A DNA stretch of 10,975 nt, taken from positions 2,982-13,956 of the forward strand of contig QHXL01000261.1 of NCBI GenBank assembly GCA_003222935.1, written 5' to 3'. Source of the DNA: Acidobacteriota bacterium (GTDB taxonomy: Bacteria > Acidobacteriota > Blastocatellia > Pyrinomonadales > Pyrinomonadaceae). Numbering within the stretch: position 1 is the stretch's first letter; the number at the start of each line of letters is the position of its first letter. Made by a program: the position numbers and the translations under genes. Below are positions 529 through 10,975 of this stretch, piece after piece. The notes under the pieces were generated by a model. It was not told the DNA's origin and ran no database searches. It was given only the letters and a program-made list of their open reading frames with translations.

Positions 529-1689
529 ATGTCGACAAGCTTTTGGCCCAGTGAAAATCAGGAACTACTCCTTCGTGCCTGCCTAAGTAGTGGTCATAAT
601 GCATTGACGGCGTGGCAGGAATGGCAGGTAATTTTTGAGTCGGGATCGTTTGACGAAGGATCCCGACGCTTACTTCCACTACTTTATAGGAATCTTCAGA
701 CGCAAAAGATATCAGGTCCTCTCGTTTCCTTGTTAAAGGAAGAGTATTTTCAGACTTGGAGTGAGAACCAGTTTTGTTTGCGGGGAATTGCGAGTCTGAT
801 CGCCGAGTTTAACCAGCAGGGAATACCGAATGTCCTTTTGAAGGGTTCTGCATTAGGTGTTCTCTATTATGAAGACGTCGGCCTCCGACCGATGAAGGAC
901 ATTGACCTGATGGTTTCACGAGATCAGGCAAATCGTGCAATGCAGCTATTGATAAGCTCTGGTTGGATACCCACATACTCCTCGCCGGAAGCCCTCATAC
1001 CGTTTGAACAGGCCACGGAATTCACCGATGCGAACAATCAGAAACTAGATCTCCATTGGCGGTTGATGTGGGAAGGAAGACCTTCTTTGGGCGATACGGA
1101 TTTTTGGCAGGCAAGTATTCCAATGCAACTCAATGGAGTGCAGACGAGGTCATTATGTCCTGCGGACCAGTTGCTGCACGTTTGTGTGCACGGTGCGAAA
1201 TGGAACGATACTTCACCGTTGCGTTGGATACCTGACGCTCTGATGATCATTCGTTCTCGGAAAATGAAAATTGATTGGACGAGATTGGTTCACCAAGCCC
1301 AGAAGCGTCAGCTAACTCTGCCTATGAGGGAGACGCTCAGTTATCTGGACAGGTTATTTGAAGCCGGGATACCGACAGAAGTTTTGAGTCAGTTAGAAGG
1401 TTCACGGACTACAAGATTGGAACGCTGGTCCTATCGAACAAGGTTAGGCAGTAACGACTCGCTCAAGATGACGACTGTCCTTTGGCATTGGATGAATTCT
1501 TTGGTAGTGAATTGTGAAGGAACACTACCTCAACGACTCGTTCAGCTTTCACAGTATCTCCAGAGCCTTTGGTCCATAACAGGTAGCTGGAAGATCCCGA
1601 TCTATCTGGTCATGAAACCAATAAAAAGGCTCTATTCCACAATCAAGTTAACTTTAAGGAACGCCTCAGCTTCTGAATCACGCAATTAA
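529..1689 (+). CDS. Nucleotidyltransferase family protein (PF14907-like)
   Basis: A 386-residue soluble protein of the uncharacterised nucleotidyltransferase family NTP_transf_5 (PF14907). Visible signatures are LLKGSA at 103-108, the catalytic carboxylate pair in RPMKDIDLMV (D124 and D126), and a third likely carboxylate in LDLHW (D174), as expected for a pol-beta-type nucleotidyltransferase fold. The remaining C-terminal half is mostly helical with no recognised motif. The family's substrate is not firmly established. Members recur in lasso-peptide clusters with an HPr-kinase-like enzyme (PadeN beside PadeK in the paeninodin cluster) and in polysaccharide loci. Here the kinase-like gene (8933-9949) and a PqqD gene (7277-7525) are about 6-7 kb away in the same locus, so a functional link is plausible but inferred. 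The ATG at 529 lacks a strong Shine-Dalgarno. The stop is 14 bp before the acyltransferase gene, so the two are probably co-transcribed. Confidence 0.85.
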   Translation: MSTSFWPSENQELLLRACLSSGHNALTAWQEWQVIFESGSFDEGSRRLLPLLYRNLQTQKISGPLVSLLKEEYFQTWSENQFCLRGIASLIAEFNQQGIPNVLLKGSALGVLYYEDVGLRPMKDIDLMVSRDQANRAMQLLISSGWIPTYSSPEALIPFEQATEFTDANNQKLDLHWRLMWEGRPSLGDTDFWQASIPMQLNGVQTRSLCPADQLLHVCVHGAKWNDTSPLRWIPDALMIIRSRKMKIDWTRLVHQAQKRQLTLPMRETLSYLDRLFEAGIPTEVLSQLEGSRTTRLERWSYRTRLGSNDSLKMTTVLWHWMNSLVVNCEGTLPQRLVQLSQYLQSLWSITGSWKIPIYLVMKPIKRLYSTIKLTLRNASASESRN

Positions 1690-1703: not shown

Positions 1704-2804
1704 ATGCCGGTATTAATGCCAACTAAATTCCAGACTCTTCAGTTTTGTCGCGGGCTCGCTGCCGTCCTGGTTCTGCTCTTTCACGCGACTTTCGTCAGTG
1801 AGTCTTTTCTCAATTACGATCTGTTGCATGGGGTTTTTCTGTTTGGCTCCAGCGGCGTGGATTTCTTTTTTGTCCTGAGCGGTTTCATTATCTTTTGGGT
1901 TCATGGCGAAGATCTGGGCCATCCAGAGGCGTTGAGACCTTACTTAAGAAAGCGCTTCATCCGGATTTATCCATTGTACTGGGTTGTATTTTTCCTACTT
2001 CTGCCCATCTATTTCGGAGTACCAGGCAATCTTCACGAGTGCCTGGTACTCCTGAAGTCGTTCCTGCTTCTGCCTCAAGTTAGCAACCCGGTGGTGACAG
2101 TCGCATGGAGTCTCTCATCGGAATTATTCTTTTACGGTTTATTTGGATTGGCGATCTACTTGTCATGGAGAGGCATGCGCGTAGTCGTTATCCTGTGGTT
2201 ATTAGTCACAACATTCTTCTGGCTTGCGAAACTGTTGACCTACGGGACGTTCCAAATGCCGTCGCATACAGGCTTCGTGTTTTCTTCGTATAACCTCGAA
2301 TTCGCAATGGGCTGTTTGGCGGCAATCCTGGCGGGAAGTATTCGTCCATCTCGTTGCTGGTGGTTAGCGCCAATTGGGCTGACCCTCTTTCTAATTTCTG
2401 GATTGAACGAGCCGTTTTTGCACTCCCTCTTTGGCCGGCGCCACTCCGTTCTGGCCTATGGACTGCCGTCAATGCTCATGGTCCTGGGAGCTGTTCAATG
2501 GGAGCGACGCAGTATCAGGACCATTCCGTCCTATCTTTTGTTGCCGGGTGAAGCCTCCTACTCCATTTATCTAACCCATTATGCGTTACTGGATCTTTTT
2601 GTGAGAGGAAGTATTGCTTCAGGACTCGTTGCTTTAATTGGGCCAGGGCTCGTTATAGCACTGATCATAGCGGCCACTTTTACCATCGGCGTTATGGTTC
2701 ACTTATTCATCGAAAACCCGATGCTTGCGCGTTTGCGAAAGAAAAGCAGCGGGATCGACCCGGCTAATCATCAACAACCCGCTCCCGTCGAAGCATTACC
2801 GTAG
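1704..2804 (+). CDS. Acyltransferase 3 family membrane protein (OafA-like)
   Basis: A 366-residue polytopic membrane acyltransferase (PF01757), the family that O-acetylates or otherwise acylates exported sugars and polysaccharides. Key features in order: R16-x10-H27 in the first membrane helix (family catalytic motif), GVDFFFVLSGF at 51-61, RFIRIYPLYW at 84-93, SLSSELFFYG at 136-145, SYSIYLTHY at 285-293 and FIENP at 335-339. About ten hydrophobic segments are visible, and the length matches the short forms without a periplasmic SGNH domain. The first ATG at 1704 is used; an ATG at 1716 would remove four residues and neither has a clear ribosome site. The gene follows the nucleotidyltransferase by 14 bp. 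Its last 41 bp overlap the 3' end of the opposite-strand gene. A perfect 13-bp inverted repeat sits inside it at 2016-2052. Acetylation of the polysaccharide made by this locus is the likely role; the acceptor is unknown. Confidence 0.93.
   Translation: MPVLMPTKFQTLQFCRGLAAVLVLLFHATFVSESFLNYDLLHGVFLFGSSGVDFFFVLSGFIIFWVHGEDLGHPEALRPYLRKRFIRIYPLYWVVFFLLLPIYFGVPGNLHECLVLLKSFLLLPQVSNPVVTVAWSLSSELFFYGLFGLAIYLSWRGMRVVVILWLLVTTFFWLAKLLTYGTFQMPSHTGFVFSSYNLEFAMGCLAAILAGSIRPSRCWWLAPIGLTLFLISGLNEPFLHSLFGRRHSVLAYGLPSMLMVLGAVQWERRSIRTIPSYLLLPGEASYSIYLTHYALLDLFVRGSIASGLVALIGPGLVIALIIAATFTIGVMVHLFIENPMLARLRKKSSGIDPANHQQPAPVEALP
2016..2052. repeat. Perfect 13-bp inverted repeat inside the acyltransferase gene
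   Basis: GGAGTACCAGGCA at 2016-2028 is exactly complementary to TGCCTGGTACTCC at 2040-2052, with an 11-nt loop between. It would form a strong hairpin in the mRNA. It is in frame and codes for ordinary residues in the loop after the third membrane segment, so it may be coincidental. Confidence 0.8.
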
Positions 2805-4332
2805 AACTTGTCCGCCAGGCGAAAAGATTTCTTCGTCGCACGGGGATAAGAATGTGCCGCTCAGGATACTCACCTCGATACAGTCGCTCGCCGAGATCGT
2901 AAAGTTGACCTGATGAAAGCTGCGTCACGCGGGCCATGGCAATTGGGTCGTGTTCCGCGACAGCCAACCAGAAATAGTCATCTGAAAGCGTCACATCCGG
3001 AGCGCATTGTTTAGTTTGGAATCGTCGTTCACCCGTGAGGTTAAGGGCTAGACGGAGCCCCTGTTCTACGTAGGGTGATAAACCATAGATATTGATAGGC
3101 CCAACGTTACGAGGTTCTTTTTGCGATAGATCTCGCGCGAGCAATAAGGAGGGGCCATCGGGACCATGTAGAACCTCCGCCAGGTTATCGGTAAACCCGG
3201 CAATGGAACTCCAGGCGAGCAAGAAGACTATCGCCAGCGCTCGCAGGTAGTGGTTCCGTAAGCTAAAAGCGGAAGCTGAAACCAGGAGTAAGTATGAACC
3301 CGTCACCAGGATTAAGTAACGTGGCTCCCACTTCCAGGTGAAAATTCTGCCGACAACCTCACTGGAAATAATGGGGAAGGCGGAAAGCCACAATAGCAAA
3401 GTATATGGATTCAAGTTGCGTTCACGATTGGGATCTTTTGAGTCTGATCCTGAAAAGTTTTTTAACGCTGCTAGGACAATGACCAGCACGATGAAGCTTC
3501 CAGTAAGCGTCAATGCCGTAGAGTTGAATCCACCCTGAAAACAGCGAAACAGCAGCAAGAGACTGCGGACACCAGGTGGGTAATACCAGGTAAGCTTATC
3601 GAGAAAAGTATAGGAAACCTGCGTCGAAACATAGACGATAACTCCAATCCAAGGCAGGTAACTCAGAACGATGATTGCCGTTGCGAATGTGAGCGAGCGC
3701 AAGTGCTTTCGATCCCTGACGAGAATCCATAGGTACTCGCCGACGATCATGAACCAGGCGAAATAATGCGTATAAACGAACACTATGTTTACTAGCGTCA
3801 GCGCAACGAGTGTCTGCTTTTGATTTGTTGACCGGCTGCGCAGGAGCATCACAAACACTGCTTGCGAACTCAGTGAAAGCAGCAGCAGCAAACTATTTGA
3901 CCGCAGATAGTAGCTGTAAAGAATTAAATAGTTATTGACTGCCGCGAGAGCGAGTGTGAGGACGATGACCGGCATCTGAAAACTGAGTTTGCGACCTAAT
4001 ATGATCAAGGGCACGATAGAGACGATCGAAAACATAACCGGCAGGATTCGCAGTCCAGGCACTGAACTACCCGTAACGTAGATCCACAGCTTGAGAGGAA
4101 AATAGAAAAGCGGCGGGTGGATCATATCGAGTCCCGCTCGTTTAAAGAGAGTAAGCCATGATCCTTGCGAGAGAGAAAAACTAAAAACCTCATCACCCCA
4201 GAGGTGAGGGGTCCACAACGACCAAATCCGCAACCCGATGTAAAGCCCGATCACTGCAACCATTATTGCAATCAACAGCCAATTTCGAGAGATGTGTTCT
4301 TCGTTAAGTTTAGCGGATATTTGAGCTGTCAT
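2764..4332 (-). CDS. GT39-like (ArnT/PMT-type) membrane glycosyltransferase
   Basis: A 522-residue polytopic protein resembling family 39 / GT-C glycosyltransferases, which transfer a sugar from a polyprenyl-phosphate carrier on the outer face of the cytoplasmic membrane. After the first membrane helix (about residues 18-37) comes LWGDEVFSFS with the acidic pair D47-E48, the catalytic-loop signature of the superfamily, then IHPPLFY at 71-77 and VPGLRILPV at 91-99. About ten more hydrophobic helices follow, ending near residue 385. The last 130 residues are soluble and presumably periplasmic. The start at 4332 overlaps the 3' end of the DUF4091 gene by 23 bp, which suggests translational coupling; no good ribosome site is seen. 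The 3' end is convergent with, and overlaps, the acyltransferase gene by 41 bp. The donor may be a lipid-linked sugar made by the DPM1-like enzyme at 1-482, by inference. The acceptor (lipid, polysaccharide or protein) cannot be assigned. Confidence 0.85.
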   Translation of the reverse strand: MTAQISAKLNEEHISRNWLLIAIMVAVIGLYIGLRIWSLWTPHLWGDEVFSFSLSQGSWLTLFKRAGLDMIHPPLFYFPLKLWIYVTGSSVPGLRILPVMFSIVSIVPLIILGRKLSFQMPVIVLTLALAAVNNYLILYSYYLRSNSLLLLLSLSSQAVFVMLLRSRSTNQKQTLVALTLVNIVFVYTHYFAWFMIVGEYLWILVRDRKHLRSLTFATAIIVLSYLPWIGVIVYVSTQVSYTFLDKLTWYYPPGVRSLLLLFRCFQGGFNSTALTLTGSFIVLVIVLAALKNFSGSDSKDPNRERNLNPYTLLLWLSAFPIISSEVVGRIFTWKWEPRYLILVTGSYLLLVSASAFSLRNHYLRALAIVFLLAWSSIAGFTDNLAEVLHGPDGPSLLLARDLSQKEPRNVGPINIYGLSPYVEQGLRLALNLTGERRFQTKQCAPDVTLSDDYFWLAVAEHDPIAMARVTQLSSGQLYDLGERLYRGEYPERHILIPVRRRNLFAWRTSSTVMLRRERVVDD

Positions 4333-6158: not shown

Positions 6159-7215
6159 TTGACAAGCACCCAGGTGCCTAAAATGCAAATGCAAGATCAA
6201 AAGGTTCGTCCCCGGATTATCGTGCTCGTACCAGTACGCAATGAAGCATGGATTCTGAAAACGTTTCTAGAGTGTGCAAGTCTCTGGGCCGATCACATCA
6301 TCGTCGCCGATCAGTCATCGACAGATGGCTCCACAGAAATCGCAGCCGCTTTTCCGAAAGTCACGGTGATAGAAAACCCTTTACCCCACTACAGCGAAGT
6401 CGAACGGCAACAGTTGCTAATTTGTGCTGATTGCGATTGATGCTGACGAAATCGTGTCGGCTAATATTCTTACCAGCGCGGATTGGGAGAACGCGATTCA
6501 CCAACCACCTGGCACAGTTTTAGGTTTCGCGAAAGTTGAACTCTACGGATCCGCAAAAGAATACTTCCTACACTCGGTGGAGGATAAGAGTTCATTTATT
6601 CCATTCGGGTTTGTCGATGATGGCACAACTCATAACGGAGAGGTCCTACACACCTGCCGGATCCCGGAACGGGCTGACTCGCCCCGCTTTAACTTAAAGG
6701 AGGTGGTAGTTCTTCACCTTACGCGCTTCAATACGCTTCGTGCTGAAAGTAAGGATCGCTGGTACCGGTGCTTCGAGCGCATTTCAAAGCCCGAAAAGAA
6801 CATCTTAACGATCCATCGTTTGTATGACTTTTTTGAACGGCTAAAAGATCAATTCAACATTCGTAACACCCGGCCCGACTGGTTCAGCAATTACGACAAG
6901 AGCGGGGTCGACCTCACATTTAGCGACACAGAAACAATCTTTTGGTGGGATTGGGAGATTCTGCGCTTCTTTAAGCAGCACGGAACCGCGCCATTTCGTC
7001 ATTTGGATATCTGGGATGTCGATTGGGAAGCGTTGCGCCGGCAGGGCTTAGCACAGGGAATTGAGGGACTGCCAGAAAAGCCACTCGAGCTTCCACTCAG
7101 CCTGCAAGATCGATTGATTCGTGCTGTGCTAAAGCTCCCGTATGCTCGCGGTCTGGTGAATAGAATCATGTCGCGCATGTTTCGTTACGGAATCATTAGA
7201 ACTGTTACCCCCTAA
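6159..7215 (+). pseudogene. GT2 glycosyltransferase, frameshifted with a small internal deletion
   Basis: A family 2 glycosyltransferase now in two frames. The first part (6159-6440) carries IVLVPVRNEAWIL (21-33), IIVADQSSTDGS (47-58) and VERQQLLI (81-88), then runs into an early stop. The second frame resumes at 6424 with LIAIDADEIVSAN, containing the DxD-type motif, and continues to 7215 through FGFVDDG and the conserved C-terminal half. In intact relatives, as I recall them, about 11 residues separate RQQLL from the leucine-rich strand before the ALDADE motif. Here they are missing, so the lesion looks like a deletion of about 30-35 bp that is not a multiple of three, rather than a one-base error. 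Starts TTG 6159 (AGGA just upstream), GTG 6174 or ATG 6183 are all possible; 6183 fits the domain best. Without frameshifting the product would lack its catalytic motif. The gene ends 61 bp before the PqqD gene, which has its own promoter. Confidence 0.8.
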
Positions 7216-7525: not shown

Positions 7526-7542
7526 GCTAGTACCGAGGGAAA

Positions 7543-7713
7543 ATGTCAGTTAACAAAGAAGCCGATACCACAAACGATCATCAAACCGCCGCCCCCGCCG
7601 CAACAGGTAATGATCAGACGGGTACCCCGATCTATCAAAAGCCGATCCTGCGCAAATACGATCAAATAGAGCAGGTCAAGCCTTACGGTCCTAGTGAGTT
7701 TGAGGCAGGATAA
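7543..7713 (+). CDS. Putative RiPP precursor peptide, 56 aa, lasso-type leader motif
   Basis: A small gene of 56 codons starting at ATG 7543 with GAGG at 7535-7538, 17 bp after the PqqD gene and probably co-transcribed with it. The N-terminal half (residues 1-29) is a low-complexity Ala/Thr/Asn/Gln/Asp segment. Residues 31-45, YQKPILRKYDQIEQV, match the leader pattern Y-x-x-P-x-L-x-x-Y-(G)-x-I-x-x-(L/V) that B1/PqqD domains recognise in lasso-type precursors, with Asp40 in place of the usual Gly. The tail is KPYGPSEFEAG. There is no Cys. The Thr normally two residues before a lasso core is Lys46 here, and only 8-10 residues remain, too few for a ring plus threaded tail. Ser51 is the only Ser after position 2, so it is a candidate site for phosphorylation or glycosylation, by inference. 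The stop is 3 bp from the convergent GT2-PqqD gene. Alternatively it could be a degenerate precursor. Confidence 0.7.
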   Translation: MSVNKEADTTNDHQTAAPAATGNDQTGTPIYQKPILRKYDQIEQVKPYGPSEFEAG

Positions 7714-7716
7714 ACA

Positions 7717-8907
7717 TCAACCGCTGACCTTCATCAGAATTTCCGCTTCGATAAGTTCTTCAATCAGCTCATCCAAATCCGTTGCTGCAGTTACTGCGGC
7801 CACGCCGTAGTAAGACACCAGTTCCTGCACCAGCCCATCCCGATTTGTCTTTCCAACAATACGCCGCCAAATAAAGTCCCCCACTCCATCGAGAACGATT
7901 CGTTGTTTCGTCGGAATGTGAACGATGACTGACGTGGGATGTTTTTCATTCCGGAACCAGAAAATAGCGTCTTCCGAAATTCGCAACGTCAGCTGCGAAG
8001 TCCATTGGAACGAACCGCGAAACCTTTTCTGTACTTGCGCACGGGGTCGGACTTCCGGCTGCGCGTCCAGGTTAAGGCGTAACCGCCATTCCTGTTTTCT
8101 ATATCCGGCCCAGTAGTACAGCCCTGCCAGGAACTTTTCTGGTTTAGTGCTCCAGATTTGTGCCGGCAAAAATTTCTCATGTCCCCCGTGTTGTCGATAG
8201 GTAGCTGAAAGCATCGCGGCGCCCTGCCCTTTAGTCATGTACTTGCTAAAAAATCCGAGCCACGAATCGCAATTGTAATGAGTGAGTTGCGCTTGAGGGA
8301 CATACGAGAGTTGGTAACCGAGCAGGACTACCCGCCAGGCAAGGTCAACGTCTTCACAAGCCTGAAGTTTAGGGTTAAACGATCCAGCGTCAGTCACCGC
8401 TTCCCGCCGGTACATGCAATTGCCCGATAGAATCCAGGGATAGATATTGCGTTTTCCGCTAACCGTGTCTTCCAGGGTGCGTTCGTTGGAAAGCACACCG
8501 GAACTATCAAGGTATTTCTGGACTCGGGCGTTGATTGACCTGTTATCGATGCTGCCCTGGCAGCCACCCAACTCAGCTGCTTTGAACTGTTCTGACATCA
8601 AACGAACCCAGTTCTTTGCGGGAACACAATGAGCATCAAGGAAACCAATTAACTCGCCACTACTTTGTGCGATTGCTGCGTTTCGAGCTGCCGCTGGACC
8701 CGGTTTCGGTTCAGCCAAAACATTAATTCCGTATTCTTCGGCGATCCTTACGGTGCCATCCGTTGAGCCATTATCGACCAGGTAGATCTGTAGCAGTTCG
8801 CCGGGATAATCCTGCGCTCTTAGGGCATCCAGGCAATGCGCGAGGTACCGCTCTTCATTCCTGGCGGCAATGATGATGTCCACACGAGGCTGATTATTCT
8901 CGCCCAT
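7717..8907 (-). CDS. GT2 glycosyltransferase with C-terminal PqqD-like (RRE) domain
   Basis: A 396-residue fusion. Residues 8-240 are a GT-A family 2 glycosyltransferase: VDIIIAARNEERYL (9-22), LVDNGSTDGT (43-52), GPAAARNAAI (70-79), the DxD-like FLDAHC (89-94), SGNCMYRREA (161-170) and ACEDVDLAWR (183-192). After a linker of about 60 residues, 310-393 is a PqqD-like domain: VIVHIPTKQRIVLDGVGDFIW (327-347), then VQELVSYYGV and the closing DLDELIEELIEAEIL. No long membrane segment is seen, so it should be cytoplasmic. A PqqD domain suggests the enzyme is delivered to a leader peptide, making it a candidate peptide glycosyltransferase; the convergent precursor-like gene is 3 bp away. It could instead be a polysaccharide enzyme using the domain for another contact. 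The ATG at 8905-8907 follows the kinase-like gene by 25 bp, with AGGAAGG rather far upstream and a 6-bp hairpin (8910-8924) in between. Confidence 0.87.
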   Translation of the reverse strand: MGENNQPRVDIIIAARNEERYLAHCLDALRAQDYPGELLQIYLVDNGSTDGTVRIAEEYGINVLAEPKPGPAAARNAAIAQSSGELIGFLDAHCVPAKNWVRLMSEQFKAAELGGCQGSIDNRSINARVQKYLDSSGVLSNERTLEDTVSGKRNIYPWILSGNCMYRREAVTDAGSFNPKLQACEDVDLAWRVVLLGYQLSYVPQAQLTHYNCDSWLGFFSKYMTKGQGAAMLSATYRQHGGHEKFLPAQIWSTKPEKFLAGLYYWAGYRKQEWRLRLNLDAQPEVRPRAQVQKRFRGSFQWTSQLTLRISEDAIFWFRNEKHPTSVIVHIPTKQRIVLDGVGDFIWRRIVGKTNRDGLVQELVSYYGVAAVTAATDLDELIEELIEAEILMKVSG

Positions 8908-8932: not shown

Positions 8933-9949
8933 TTACAGTTGACTGATGAGTTCCGGTATTTCTTCAAGGTGCTGATCCGCGTACTCCAATTCATAAGTTT
9001 CCGCGCCGTGAATAACTTTTGTAAGCAAGTCGAAGACAAATTCAGTGTAGTCATTGAACGGGTGCGTCTTTTTGCGAAACGATGGCTGGCGGAAAATGAT
9101 CATGCTCTCATTAATAAGGTCTCGGTGGACCAGGTTGCGATTGAGGGGCTTGACAAGTGGCACACTCAGATCGGATTGTCGCCGCAGTTGAATGTAGTGA
9201 GTGACCCGATGAGGTTGGGTCCATGCGTTACTATTTTGCAGGTGACTCATTCCTACAGCGAATTTCTCCCGGTGGTCTTTCTGTCCCACCACGTACGGGT
9301 TCAATTCAGGGAAGAGCCTTAACGTGTTCTCAGTTACATGTAAAAAATCAAGTGAGGAAAGGGCATATGCTGATCCATTCTCGGTGATAAAGAGTGGACC
9401 ATCCTCAGATAATAGATCGTAACCGGCGCGCATCAATTGAACAGCACTGGTTGTCTTTCCCGCTCCACCTTGACCACTTAGAAAGACTGTTCGTCCTGAC
9501 TTCGTTAGAACTGCGCCGTGAAGAGTCTTGATACGGTAGAACGGCAGAATGAAACTCTGCAGGATCGGTCGAATCATGTGGGAGAGGAAAGCCTGGTTGT
9601 TAGACAAGTACTTACCGGCGACGTTGGCCCGAATCGTATGAGTCTGAAGGTCATACTCAATTTCGTGCCAGTAATCTCCGTGATGTGAAGCGAAGAATCG
9701 TCCCTCTTCGTAGTAGCAACGCCCGGTGCAGAGATTTGTCTCCGCAAACACACCCTTTGCGGGTGGCTTTATGATCGAAGCCTCATGAGAGTCTTTACTC
9801 TCGACGATCAACTTGAGCGATGCACATTTATCGGGGAATGTCTGCGTCAAATCGTTTGAGACGTAAAGCAGGTCGATCCAGCGCTTGAAGTCGAGGCTAT
9901 TGGACTGAATATCGAATTTCAGAAAATGAAGCAGCAGTTCGAGGTTCAC
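8933..9949 (-). CDS. HPr-kinase-like (HprK-related) P-loop protein
   Basis: A 338-residue relative of the HPr kinase/phosphorylase C-terminal domain. The core is LHGAVL (143-148), FLSGQGGAGKTTSAV (156-170) with the Walker A lysine K165, and LLSEDGPLFI (179-188), whose acidic residues correspond to the acid after the P-loop strand in HprK. The first 130 residues lack recognised motifs and are unlike the N-terminal domain of true HprK; no HPr or PTS gene is nearby. Relatives occur as lasso-peptide kinases (PadeK, which phosphorylates the C-terminal Ser of paeninodin) and as HprK-related proteins next to PqqD proteins in polysaccharide loci. A role in phosphorylating the peptide encoded at 7543-7713 is therefore plausible but inferred. 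The GTG start at 9949 is supported by GGAGA seven bases upstream and overlaps the GT4 gene by 53 bp. The GT2-PqqD gene follows after 25 bp, so the three form one minus-strand unit. Confidence 0.85.
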   Translation of the reverse strand: MNLELLLHFLKFDIQSNSLDFKRWIDLLYVSNDLTQTFPDKCASLKLIVESKDSHEASIIKPPAKGVFAETNLCTGRCYYEEGRFFASHHGDYWHEIEYDLQTHTIRANVAGKYLSNNQAFLSHMIRPILQSFILPFYRIKTLHGAVLTKSGRTVFLSGQGGAGKTTSAVQLMRAGYDLLSEDGPLFITENGSAYALSSLDFLHVTENTLRLFPELNPYVVGQKDHREKFAVGMSHLQNSNAWTQPHRVTHYIQLRRQSDLSVPLVKPLNRNLVHRDLINESMIIFRQPSFRKKTHPFNDYTEFVFDLLTKVIHGAETYELEYADQHLEEIPELISQL

Positions 9950-10975
9950 GCTCTTGTCTCCGCGTCAGCATCAGCTCCAGACACTCGCTGAACCGCACAT
10001 TGTCCTTAAGACTTAAAATTAGCTGACACCAATCATACTTAGCTTTGAAAGCGTCGTAGTATTCAGCCTTCTCATTCGCAAGATATGGACGGAACTCATC
10101 ACGCAAGCCGGACAATTCCTTCAACATCTCGGAATCTGGATGTTTTTCAGTTCTGAGCCTTTCCGCAAGGGTTTTCAGAGCAGTAGCCAATTCTTGAAAG
10201 CGCCTGTAGACCGCGATAGGGGTCAAATTACCTTCTCGTTCCAGGTCGTCCAGTAGCAACTGCATCTCCCCGCGATCAATTCTACCGGCGCCTTCATAGG
10301 TCCGATCAATTTCATCGAGATGCTCCATAAAGATCTTTGCGGAAGTACTCCAATCGTAACGTTCTTCTGTCGACTTGAATGCTTCCCGGCGCAGTCTTTC
10401 AGCAAGCGATTCATCGGACAACACTCGCTGCAGTTTCAGATAAATGTCATGTGGATCGTTAGGCTGCGCCAGGAGCATATTGACATTGTCGATACCATAA
10501 TCCGAAACTCCGAAAGTTCGCGTTGACACCACGGGAACTCCGCAGCGAAACGCCTCGATAGCGGGAAGCCCCAGCCCTTCATACCAGGAGGTGCAGCAAT
10601 ATGTATCGCAACTGGAAATAATTGCCGGCATCTGTTCTTCGGTCGGGCAGTAGTGCAACTCAATTGGAAATTTTAGGTTCTCGAAAATAGCGCGCCCCCT
10701 GGATTCCTGAGTTGCCATCACCAACTGAACAGGCATCTCAGTTGAAAGCTTAGCCAGCGCTTCAAAGCCATCTTTCATTCCTTTGTAAGGCATCAGGTAA
10801 TTACCCACCATCAACACCCGCTTGAATTCAGTAGGCGCCTTTTGTTTCTGCGGAGCAAAGACTTCTTTGTTGAGTCCCATTGGAAGATAGAAGGATTCGC
10901 TGCCAGCTCGCTCTTTAAGCAAGCTCTGGACTGCTCTTGAAATTGATATCTTCGGAACAGGAAGTTCATAGATTT
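9897..10975 (-). CDS. GT4 (GT-B) glycosyltransferase, 5' end cut by window edge
   Basis: The C-terminal part of a retaining GT-B glycosyltransferase of family 4. The frame is open to the right edge, so the TTG at 10922 is not the true start; the visible upstream residues (ELPVPKISISRAVQSLL) read as the end of the N-terminal domain. The donor-binding domain shows LPMGLNKEVF, VLMVGNYLMPYKGMKDGFEAL, LHYCPTEEQMPAIISSCD and the E-x7-E signature in YEGLGLPAIEAF, followed by GVPVVSTRTFG. The Rossmann domain is followed by an unusual tail of about 120 residues, rich in charge and helix-forming residues, with no recognised motif. Such enzymes add sugars from nucleotide donors to lipid-linked glycans on the cytoplasmic side. 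The 3' end overlaps the HprK-like gene by 53 bp, so it heads the minus-strand unit visible here. Sugar specificity cannot be read. Confidence 0.9.
   Translation of the reverse strand, partial: IYELPVPKISISRAVQSLLKERAGSESFYLPMGLNKEVFAPQKQKAPTEFKRVLMVGNYLMPYKGMKDGFEALAKLSTEMPVQLVMATQESRGRAIFENLKFPIELHYCPTEEQMPAIISSCDTYCCTSWYEGLGLPAIEAFRCGVPVVSTRTFGVSDYGIDNVNMLLAQPNDPHDIYLKLQRVLSDESLAERLRREAFKSTEERYDWSTSAKIFMEHLDEIDRTYEGAGRIDRGEMQLLLDDLEREGNLTPIAVYRRFQELATALKTLAERLRTEKHPDSEMLKELSGLRDEFRPYLANEKAEYYDAFKAKYDWCQLILSLKDNVRFSECLELMLTRRQEREPRTAASFSEIRYSVQ
9957..9961 (-). promoter_or_regulatory. Ribosome binding site deciding the GTG start of the HprK-like gene
   Basis: On the minus strand GGAGA is followed by a 7-nt spacer and the GTG at 9947-9949. 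It lies inside the upstream GT4 coding region and supports a 53-bp gene overlap rather than a later start; no Met codon occurs near the N-terminus to offer an alternative. Confidence 0.6.

Follow-up and report, generated by a model that had tools for sequence, protein, structure and literature searches.

A conserved, cysteine-free RiPP-like peptide family tied to an RRE-glycosyltransferase, probably a new kind of modified peptide

The locus and its genomic setting

The window considered here is a stretch of 10,975 nucleotides from an Acidobacteriota bacterium of the family Pyrinomonadaceae, and it extends to the right end of a contig of 13,956 bases in total. Within it lies a 56-aa ORF with an ATG start that follows a stand-alone PqqD gene on the same strand (Table 1). 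The PqqD gene ends 17 bases upstream of the ORF, GAGGG is present at 7535-7539 with 3 bases between it and the ATG, and three bases separate the stop from that of a convergent gene for a GT2 glycosyltransferase with a fused PqqD/RRE domain (hereafter GT2-PqqD). Together with the PF05402 match of the upstream product, this arrangement bears out an earlier note, made from the letters of the DNA alone, that had placed a peptide gene with a ribosome site directly behind a PqqD/RRE gene. Y31, P34, L36, Y39, I42 and V45, in which the note had recognised the spacing of leader residues bound by RRE proteins, are all present, and Lys46 and Asp40 occupy the positions of the Thr and Gly of lasso leaders.

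Table 1. Positions of the peptide gene, its segments and the genes around it in the window
Feature	Position	Strand	Evidence
NTP_transf_5 nucleotidyltransferase	529..1689	+	PF14907, E 3.8e-46
GT2-type gene upstream of PqqD, split in two frames	6159..7215	+	6159-6440 and 6424-7215
Stand-alone PqqD/RRE protein, 82 aa	7277..7525	+	PF05402, E 3.7e-17
Precursor-like peptide, 56 aa	7543..7713	+	Homologue searches and alignment
Peptide, variable N-terminus	residues 1-30		
Peptide, leader motif YxKPx[LIV]R[KR]YDQI	residues 31-42		
Peptide, near-invariant QVKPYGPSE	residues 44-52		
Peptide, looser end	residues 53-56		
GT2 glycosyltransferase with C-terminal PqqD/RRE domain, 396 aa	7717..8907	-	PF00535, E 1e-29; PF05402, E 2.1e-10
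HprK-like protein, P-loop GQGGAGKTT, candidate Ser kinase	8933..9949	-	Weak matches
GT4 glycosyltransferase, truncated by window/contig end	9897..10975	-	PF00534, E 2.1e-23

The stand-alone PqqD protein obtained its best NCBIfam scores with lasso PqqD models, below their cut-offs, and reached 61.7 bits with NF033530 (cut-off 70). Its closest natural relative among solved RREs is TbiB1, a lasso B1 protein (5v1u, E 1.9e-07); eight de novo designed chains outrank TbiB1, with no stretch of these passing alone. The matches of the HprK-like protein are weak (TIGR04352, 36.7 bits against a cut-off of 200; PF07475, 18.6 bits against 33.3), and the NTP_transf_5 gene is only loosely linked because 5.6 kb separates it from the PqqD gene. 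The upstream GT2-type gene runs through two overlapping frames, reflecting either a true frame break or an assembly error; its first piece matches PF13704 (E 1.9e-07) and PF00535 (E 3.5e-06), while the piece at 6424-7215 and the ORF at 2764-4332 are without a Pfam match. Further neighbours in the window are mostly of sugar or surface type (an acyltransferase and a GH123-like protein), and the contig also carries GT2, NAD-dependent epimerase, DegT-type aminotransferase and methyltransferase genes. Because polysaccharide loci abound in glycosyltransferases, the other members of this group at the locus may be unrelated to the peptide. Among the main ORFs of the 14-kb contig, which is cut at both ends and includes the two ORFs lacking a Pfam match, we recognised no leader peptidase, exporter, radical SAM protein, B2 protein or lasso cyclase.

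Mis-binning of the contig was considered and set aside, as its mean tetranucleotide correlation with 11 other stretches of the genome (six stretches under 7 kb were excluded) is 0.84, inside their own range of 0.77-0.89. Five genomes of the same genus correlate equally (0.79-0.88), so this comparison weighs little, and we conclude only that composition offers no ground to suspect mis-binning.

The same genome (G000) contains other PqqD loci. On contig C456 lies a distinct, more complete lasso-type cluster (L017, 673-10653) with genes for an ABC exporter, NTP_transf_5, B2, an HprK-like protein, a sulfotransferase, PqqD, a JmjC/cupin protein, a candidate precursor and Asn synthase; the sulfotransferase and JmjC/cupin genes may be of interest in a cluster of lasso type. 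Its candidate precursor (8595-8810, + strand) reads WETPKL...TQGGAGDKDDQDD, and TQGG is also present. On contig C370 (L018, 6850-12896) we found PqqD, a weakly matching sulfotransferase-like ORF, a radical SAM protein and a P-loop protein, with NTP_transf_5 nearby and a precursor candidate at 10223-10405 (- strand), a 60-aa ORF with FIEPEV. Both candidate precursors were chosen by eye and neither matched an NCBIfam model; homology of the peptide to them was rejected, as profile comparison gave probabilities of 0.4% and 0.1%. The NTP_transf_5 and HprK types recur in these other PqqD loci and in one locus without a recognised PqqD, and are therefore not specific to the peptide. The leader motifs of the three loci begin with Trp, Phe and Tyr. 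Trp versus Tyr is reported as a key factor in RRE selection between paeninodin and linear polyphosphorylated peptide (LPP) systems (PMC13381572), and by analogy we infer that the three loci avoid crosstalk through the first residue of the leader motif.

The peptide family and its fused glycosyltransferase

A search with the single peptide sequence returned 52 related proteins, and a profile built from those 52 returned 240 at E up to 10. We aligned the best 120 of these 240 (weakest E 8.4e-14), anchored on KPYGP; all counts out of 120 given for the peptide refer to this set, and the other 120 may vary more. Y31, K33, P34, R37, Y39, Q41 and I42 are identical in 120/120, as is each residue of QVKPYGP (Q44, V45, K46, P47, Y48, G49 and P50). 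D40 is found in 118/120 and E52 in 119/120, Ser51 is replaced once by Thr (119/120), and QVKPYGPSE is whole in 118/120. The features of an RRE-type leader are thus present, with Y31 and P34 in every listed relative and Leu, Ile or Val at position 36 in all except one, which has Phe. Mean pairwise identity is 88% over residues 31-52 and 17% over the preceding 24 residues (ungapped, 120 listed clusters), and Cys is absent from 119/120. Relatives vary more beyond residue 52, and 8/120 stop after residue 53. These eight (P0100, P0108, P0110, P0112, P0114, P0118, P0119 and P0120) end in GPSE plus Ile, Leu or Val and lack the terminal three residues (usually EAG); P0110 lies on a 3.8-Mb contig.

The peptide of the window matches no Pfam or NCBIfam model, two of its relatives match no NCBIfam model, and the listed relatives (the 52, and the best 120 of 240) have no precomputed Pfam domain. 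AlphaFold2 predicted no regular structure for the free peptide, with low confidence (pTM 0.20), as could be the case for a leader. Since the search requires short exact words common to query and candidate, some conserved word is expected by construction; this design does not explain 22 nearly fixed positions in the alignment. Judged by its homologues, the peptide gene is real and is conserved far above chance. The earlier note had named beforehand a lack of conservation in relatives as grounds for giving up its reading; 52 and 240 homologues were found, the listed ones in one register. It had also regarded KPYGPSE(FEAG) as a mere leftover available as core; the sequence is as it gave it, but conservation extends past the leader and KPYGPSE lies within the most conserved stretch of all.

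Within its phylum the peptide is rare among the sampled genomes, and only the genome of the window has it. No relative was found in 15 other genomes of the genus (two matches near E 0.8), 98 of the family, 161 of the class or 395 of the phylum, where a single match at E 0.004 was rejected as a 257-aa ORF of another kind having only KPVLxKYDQI in common with the peptide. That ORF (L003, G241:C22, 997-1770, + strand, with KPVLAKYDQI) is the sole sizeable resemblance outside the peptide family and looks by eye like an unrelated coiled-coil protein with paired Cys. There was likewise no relative in viral contigs, plasmids or phages (one phage match at E 7), nor in a scan of genome contigs, the sole scan reaching other phyla. 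Among the best 120 of 240 protein matches, P0107 comes from a Solirubrobacterales MAG. A GT2-PqqD profile at E 1e-60 matched only the window's own genome among 396, with 4 candidates scored for each genome listed. The kinase was matched in 2/118 other genomes of the family (32% identity along some 100-110 residues). Of the two loci, one (L020) carries NTP_transf_5, Asn synthase and GT4 and has no short ORF with the leader pattern Y..P.[LVI]; the other (L021) carries an acyltransferase, and a short ORF with this pattern (2238-2375) was discarded there as antisense within the acyltransferase ORF.

The search with GT2-PqqD scored the 7998 candidates that had most words in common with the query and yielded 556 proteins; the best 120 of 556 are considered here, with a longest-contig size given for 119. 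PF05402 is annotated in 114/120 of these (eye count of the Pfam column), which include a Pyrinomonadaceae protein at 72% identity (P0125) and a Gemmatimonadaceae protein of a far group (P0212). In the 112 listed matches of at least 372 aa, which were aligned, D45, D91, E185, D186 and H210 are retained in 112/112 and H93 in 111/112; because these residues are kept, the enzyme looks active. Its AlphaFold2 model has a mean pLDDT of 93.8 and a pTM of 0.92, and in fold searches it matched GT-A enzymes of diverse types. The near-invariant D-x-H (D91, H93) presumably resembles the DXH of polypeptide GalNAc-transferases; the same D-x-H may occur in GT2 enzymes acting on lipid-linked sugars. The fused RRE of the window alone retrieved no relative among solved structures with phmmer; its family profile matched TbiB1.

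Co-location was assessed by comparing the exact longest-contig sizes of the 119 GT2-PqqD homologues with those of the 120 peptide clusters, so that shared contigs are deduced indirectly, from size. Among those listed there were 26 exact matches, 24 of them on contigs of at least 2 kb (94 GT homologues and 56 peptide clusters have contigs of that size); the 2 under 2 kb were left unused. When sizes were moved by 1 to 50 bases either way, the mean number of matches was 0.27 and the maximum 2. Data source, compared by eye, agrees in 22/24 matched pairs, and the two that disagree (P0158/P0093 and P0186/P0087) were taken as chance matches. All 24 fall among 57 closer GT homologues and 0/37 among farther ones (counting listed homologues whose contigs reach 2 kb), so that the enzyme family extends beyond the peptide family; the far group (P0189 to P0240, one from Gemmatimonadaceae) may use another precursor. 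From the peptide side, matches cover 22/56 clusters in the same size range. The listed GT homologues offer no partner for roughly half, or more, of the larger peptide contigs, including the large ones of P0007, P0019, P0050, P0101 and P0110, and this may reflect the extent of the list, a different longest contig or true absence.

On a shared contig of 2063 bases the two coding regions are at most 701 bases apart, if both lie whole on it. Across the 22 source-concordant pairs the distance matrices of the two families are correlated (Mantel r 0.606, reached by 0/9999 permutations), a correlation that shared ancestry alone can yield, and the glycosyltransferase diverges to 45% identity with QVKPYGPSE unchanged in 22/22. 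These 22 size matches indirectly place an RRE-bearing protein, the fused GT2-PqqD, beside the precursor in relatives, and on this comparison it is the best-supported partner of the peptide, a fusion on which the earlier note had not drawn. Only in this window was the peptide observed together with the stand-alone PqqD, the kinase and the nucleotidyltransferase.

Proposed function and alternative readings

We consider it reasonably probable that the peptide is a RiPP-like precursor without Cys and that the RRE-glycosyltransferase glycosylates its fixed core, to which the HprK-like kinase possibly adds a phosphate at Ser51. RREs recognise leaders and deliver substrates to enzymes (PMC12710340), and the presence of a fused RRE suggests that this glycosyltransferase acts on the peptide. 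The YxKPxL leader motif would be bound by the RRE domains of the stand-alone PqqD and of the GT2 fusion, binding would place the fixed segment QVKPYGPSE at the catalytic domain, and that domain would transfer a sugar onto the hydroxyl of Ser51, or of Tyr48 or Tyr39. Phosphorylation of Ser51 by the HprK-like protein may come first, in line with the action of related kinases on phosphorylated lasso peptides and LPPs, and extending the modification may fall to the NTP_transf_5 protein. LPP kinases phosphorylate Ser3 of the core (PMC13381572), as does the BsfA kinase (PMC10368454), Ser51 being core residue 4 in the lasso register, and the nucleotidyltransferase homologue PsmN has been linked to hexoses on phosphorylated Ser (PMC9266682); these kinase and PsmN parallels are analogies. 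Binding, glycosylation, phosphorylation, the modified site, cleavage and the role of the peptide are what we infer beside the conserved gene, its YxxPx[LIV] pattern, the fused RRE-glycosyltransferase and the contigs common to both families by size match.

As it would be chemically constant across lineages, the product should act as a fixed tool, such as a signal, a cofactor-like molecule or a glycan primer for the surrounding polysaccharide pathway, and not as a diversifying antibiotic. An invariant core beside an enzyme that diverges so far likewise points to a conserved role and not to an antibiotic arms race. The suggestion of the earlier note that this could be a new class of short, Cys-free modified peptide stands as far as sequence can carry it (Cys absent from all listed relatives except one, a near-invariant tail, contigs in common with the RRE-glycosyltransferase), and we regard the family as probably a new kind of modified peptide. 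More tentatively, it may define a new RiPP class in which an RRE-glycosyltransferase is paired with a precursor that keeps its core, QVKPYGPSE, unchanged in diverged lineages; the product would be a fixed glycopeptide (cofactor-like, a signal, or a protein primer of surface polysaccharide), possibly with the leader retained.

It is conceivable, but in our view unlikely, that the peptide is left unmodified and serves as a docking adaptor, its tail being a ligand by which the RRE-bearing glycosyltransferase, perhaps along with further polysaccharide enzymes, is held in a complex or activated. Residues 31-52 are nearly fixed throughout, beyond what a leader needs, the contig has no recognised peptidase or exporter, and polysaccharide-type genes are many at the locus, all of which would suit an adaptor. 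RREs are, however, described as leader binders that deliver substrates (PMC12710340), and Ser (Thr in 1/120) is kept at position 51 in the best 120 of 240.

Rather improbable is an LPP-like peptide, in which the HprK-like kinase would make the main modification on Ser51 and GT2-PqqD would add a later sugar. The RRE, HprK-like protein and NTP_transf_5 of the window, with no recognised lasso enzymes, correspond to the LPP set minus the SpI peptidase and exporter (PMC13381572). However, the LPP motif YxxPxVLxHQxIxFETxxS is unmatched here apart from YxxP and Ile, LPP precursors are described as having highly variable C-termini (PMC13381572) where these are nearly fixed, the kinase match is weak, and the link between kinase and peptide comes from one locus only.

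A lasso precursor, still working or decayed, is very improbable, and the decayed form offered by the earlier note is ruled out by conservation, Lys at -2 and KPYGP being fixed in 120/120 listed relatives. The YxxPxL residues do stand in the lasso register of Tyr(-17), Pro(-14) and Leu(-12) (PMC10368454), and the stand-alone PqqD leans towards lasso models (under their cut-offs) and towards TbiB1. Against this, position -2 carries Lys46 throughout the best 120 of 240 instead of Thr (or Ile/Val), and the in-register core from Tyr48 is YGPSE plus 1-4 residues (9 residues left here, 6 in 8/120), too short for a ring-forming acid at 7-9 and a threading tail. No B2 protein or macrolactam cyclase was recognised on the 14-kb contig, which is cut at both ends; PF13471 was found on C456 and C488, the former holding the fuller lasso-type cluster of this genome. 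That the ORF arose by chance between its neighbours, as its shortness and its position between convergent genes might suggest, is dismissed by the 52 and 240 homologues, 120 of them listed with one register and one tail.

Comparison with known systems

The phosphorylated lasso peptides (paeninodin, Bsf and pseudomycoidin) resemble the present system in their leader spacing, B1-type RRE and HprK-like kinase, and in PsmN, annotated as a nucleotidyltransferase, with its hexoses on phosphorylated Ser (PMC9266682). The peptide described here differs from them in having no Thr, Ile or Val at -2, no ring-forming core and no recognised B2 protein or cyclase.

LPPs, described mainly from Bacillota, share with it a discrete RRE, an HprK-like kinase, an NTP transferase, a YxxP leader and a polysaccharide locus, and they have no lasso cyclase (PMC13381572), an enzyme also not recognised on our contig, which is cut; the combination of RRE, kinase (a weak match) and NTP transferase (5.6 kb away) was found in this window only. 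LPP systems have a SpI-like peptidase and an MsbA-like exporter, neither of which was recognised on our contig, which is cut, and their precursors span 35-200 residues with highly variable C-termini (PMC13381572). Their leader motif is also different, the present one reading YxKPx[LIV]R[KR]YDQIxQVKPYGPSE with Ser two positions later than in LPPs, and unlike this locus the part of PMC13381572 covered here describes no fused RRE-glycosyltransferase.

Glycocins combine nested disulfides with glycosylation, whereas 119/120 listed relatives of the peptide are without Cys. PQQ and mycofactocin pair a short precursor with a PqqD-type RRE (PqqA/PqqD, MftA/MftF), and the glycosyltransferase domain here resembles MftF (134 bits, cut-off 280). 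No radical SAM gene was recognised on the present contig, which is cut, and to our knowledge the core is unrelated in sequence to the PQQ and mycofactocin precursors.

The fusion of an RRE to a glycosyltransferase, seen here as PF00535 and an RRE-type PqqD domain within one protein, is already in print (RRE-Finder, 2020, PMC7470986; 2025 update, with PF00535, PMC12710340), where, in the text covered here, it is termed absent from, or not previously known in, described RiPP classes and is given no precursor sequence. Nine candidate clusters are given in Fig. S7 of the former, three with probable precursors and four with predicted candidates (PMC7470986). Within open-licence PMC text, supplements (e.g., the figures of PMC7470986) being outside this scope, no precursor of the present sequence is printed for such fusions and no paper contains KPYGPSE or YDQIEQVKPYG. 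KPYGPSE offers a sequence handle for ORFs some 42 to 69 residues long. Compared with the published RRE-glycosyltransferase fusions, named as unusual RiPP-type enzymes (PMC7470986, PMC12710340), the present case is distinguished by a defined peptide family tied to one fusion subgroup. This family is a concrete substrate candidate, with known positions for mutation, through which the function of these enzymes becomes directly testable.
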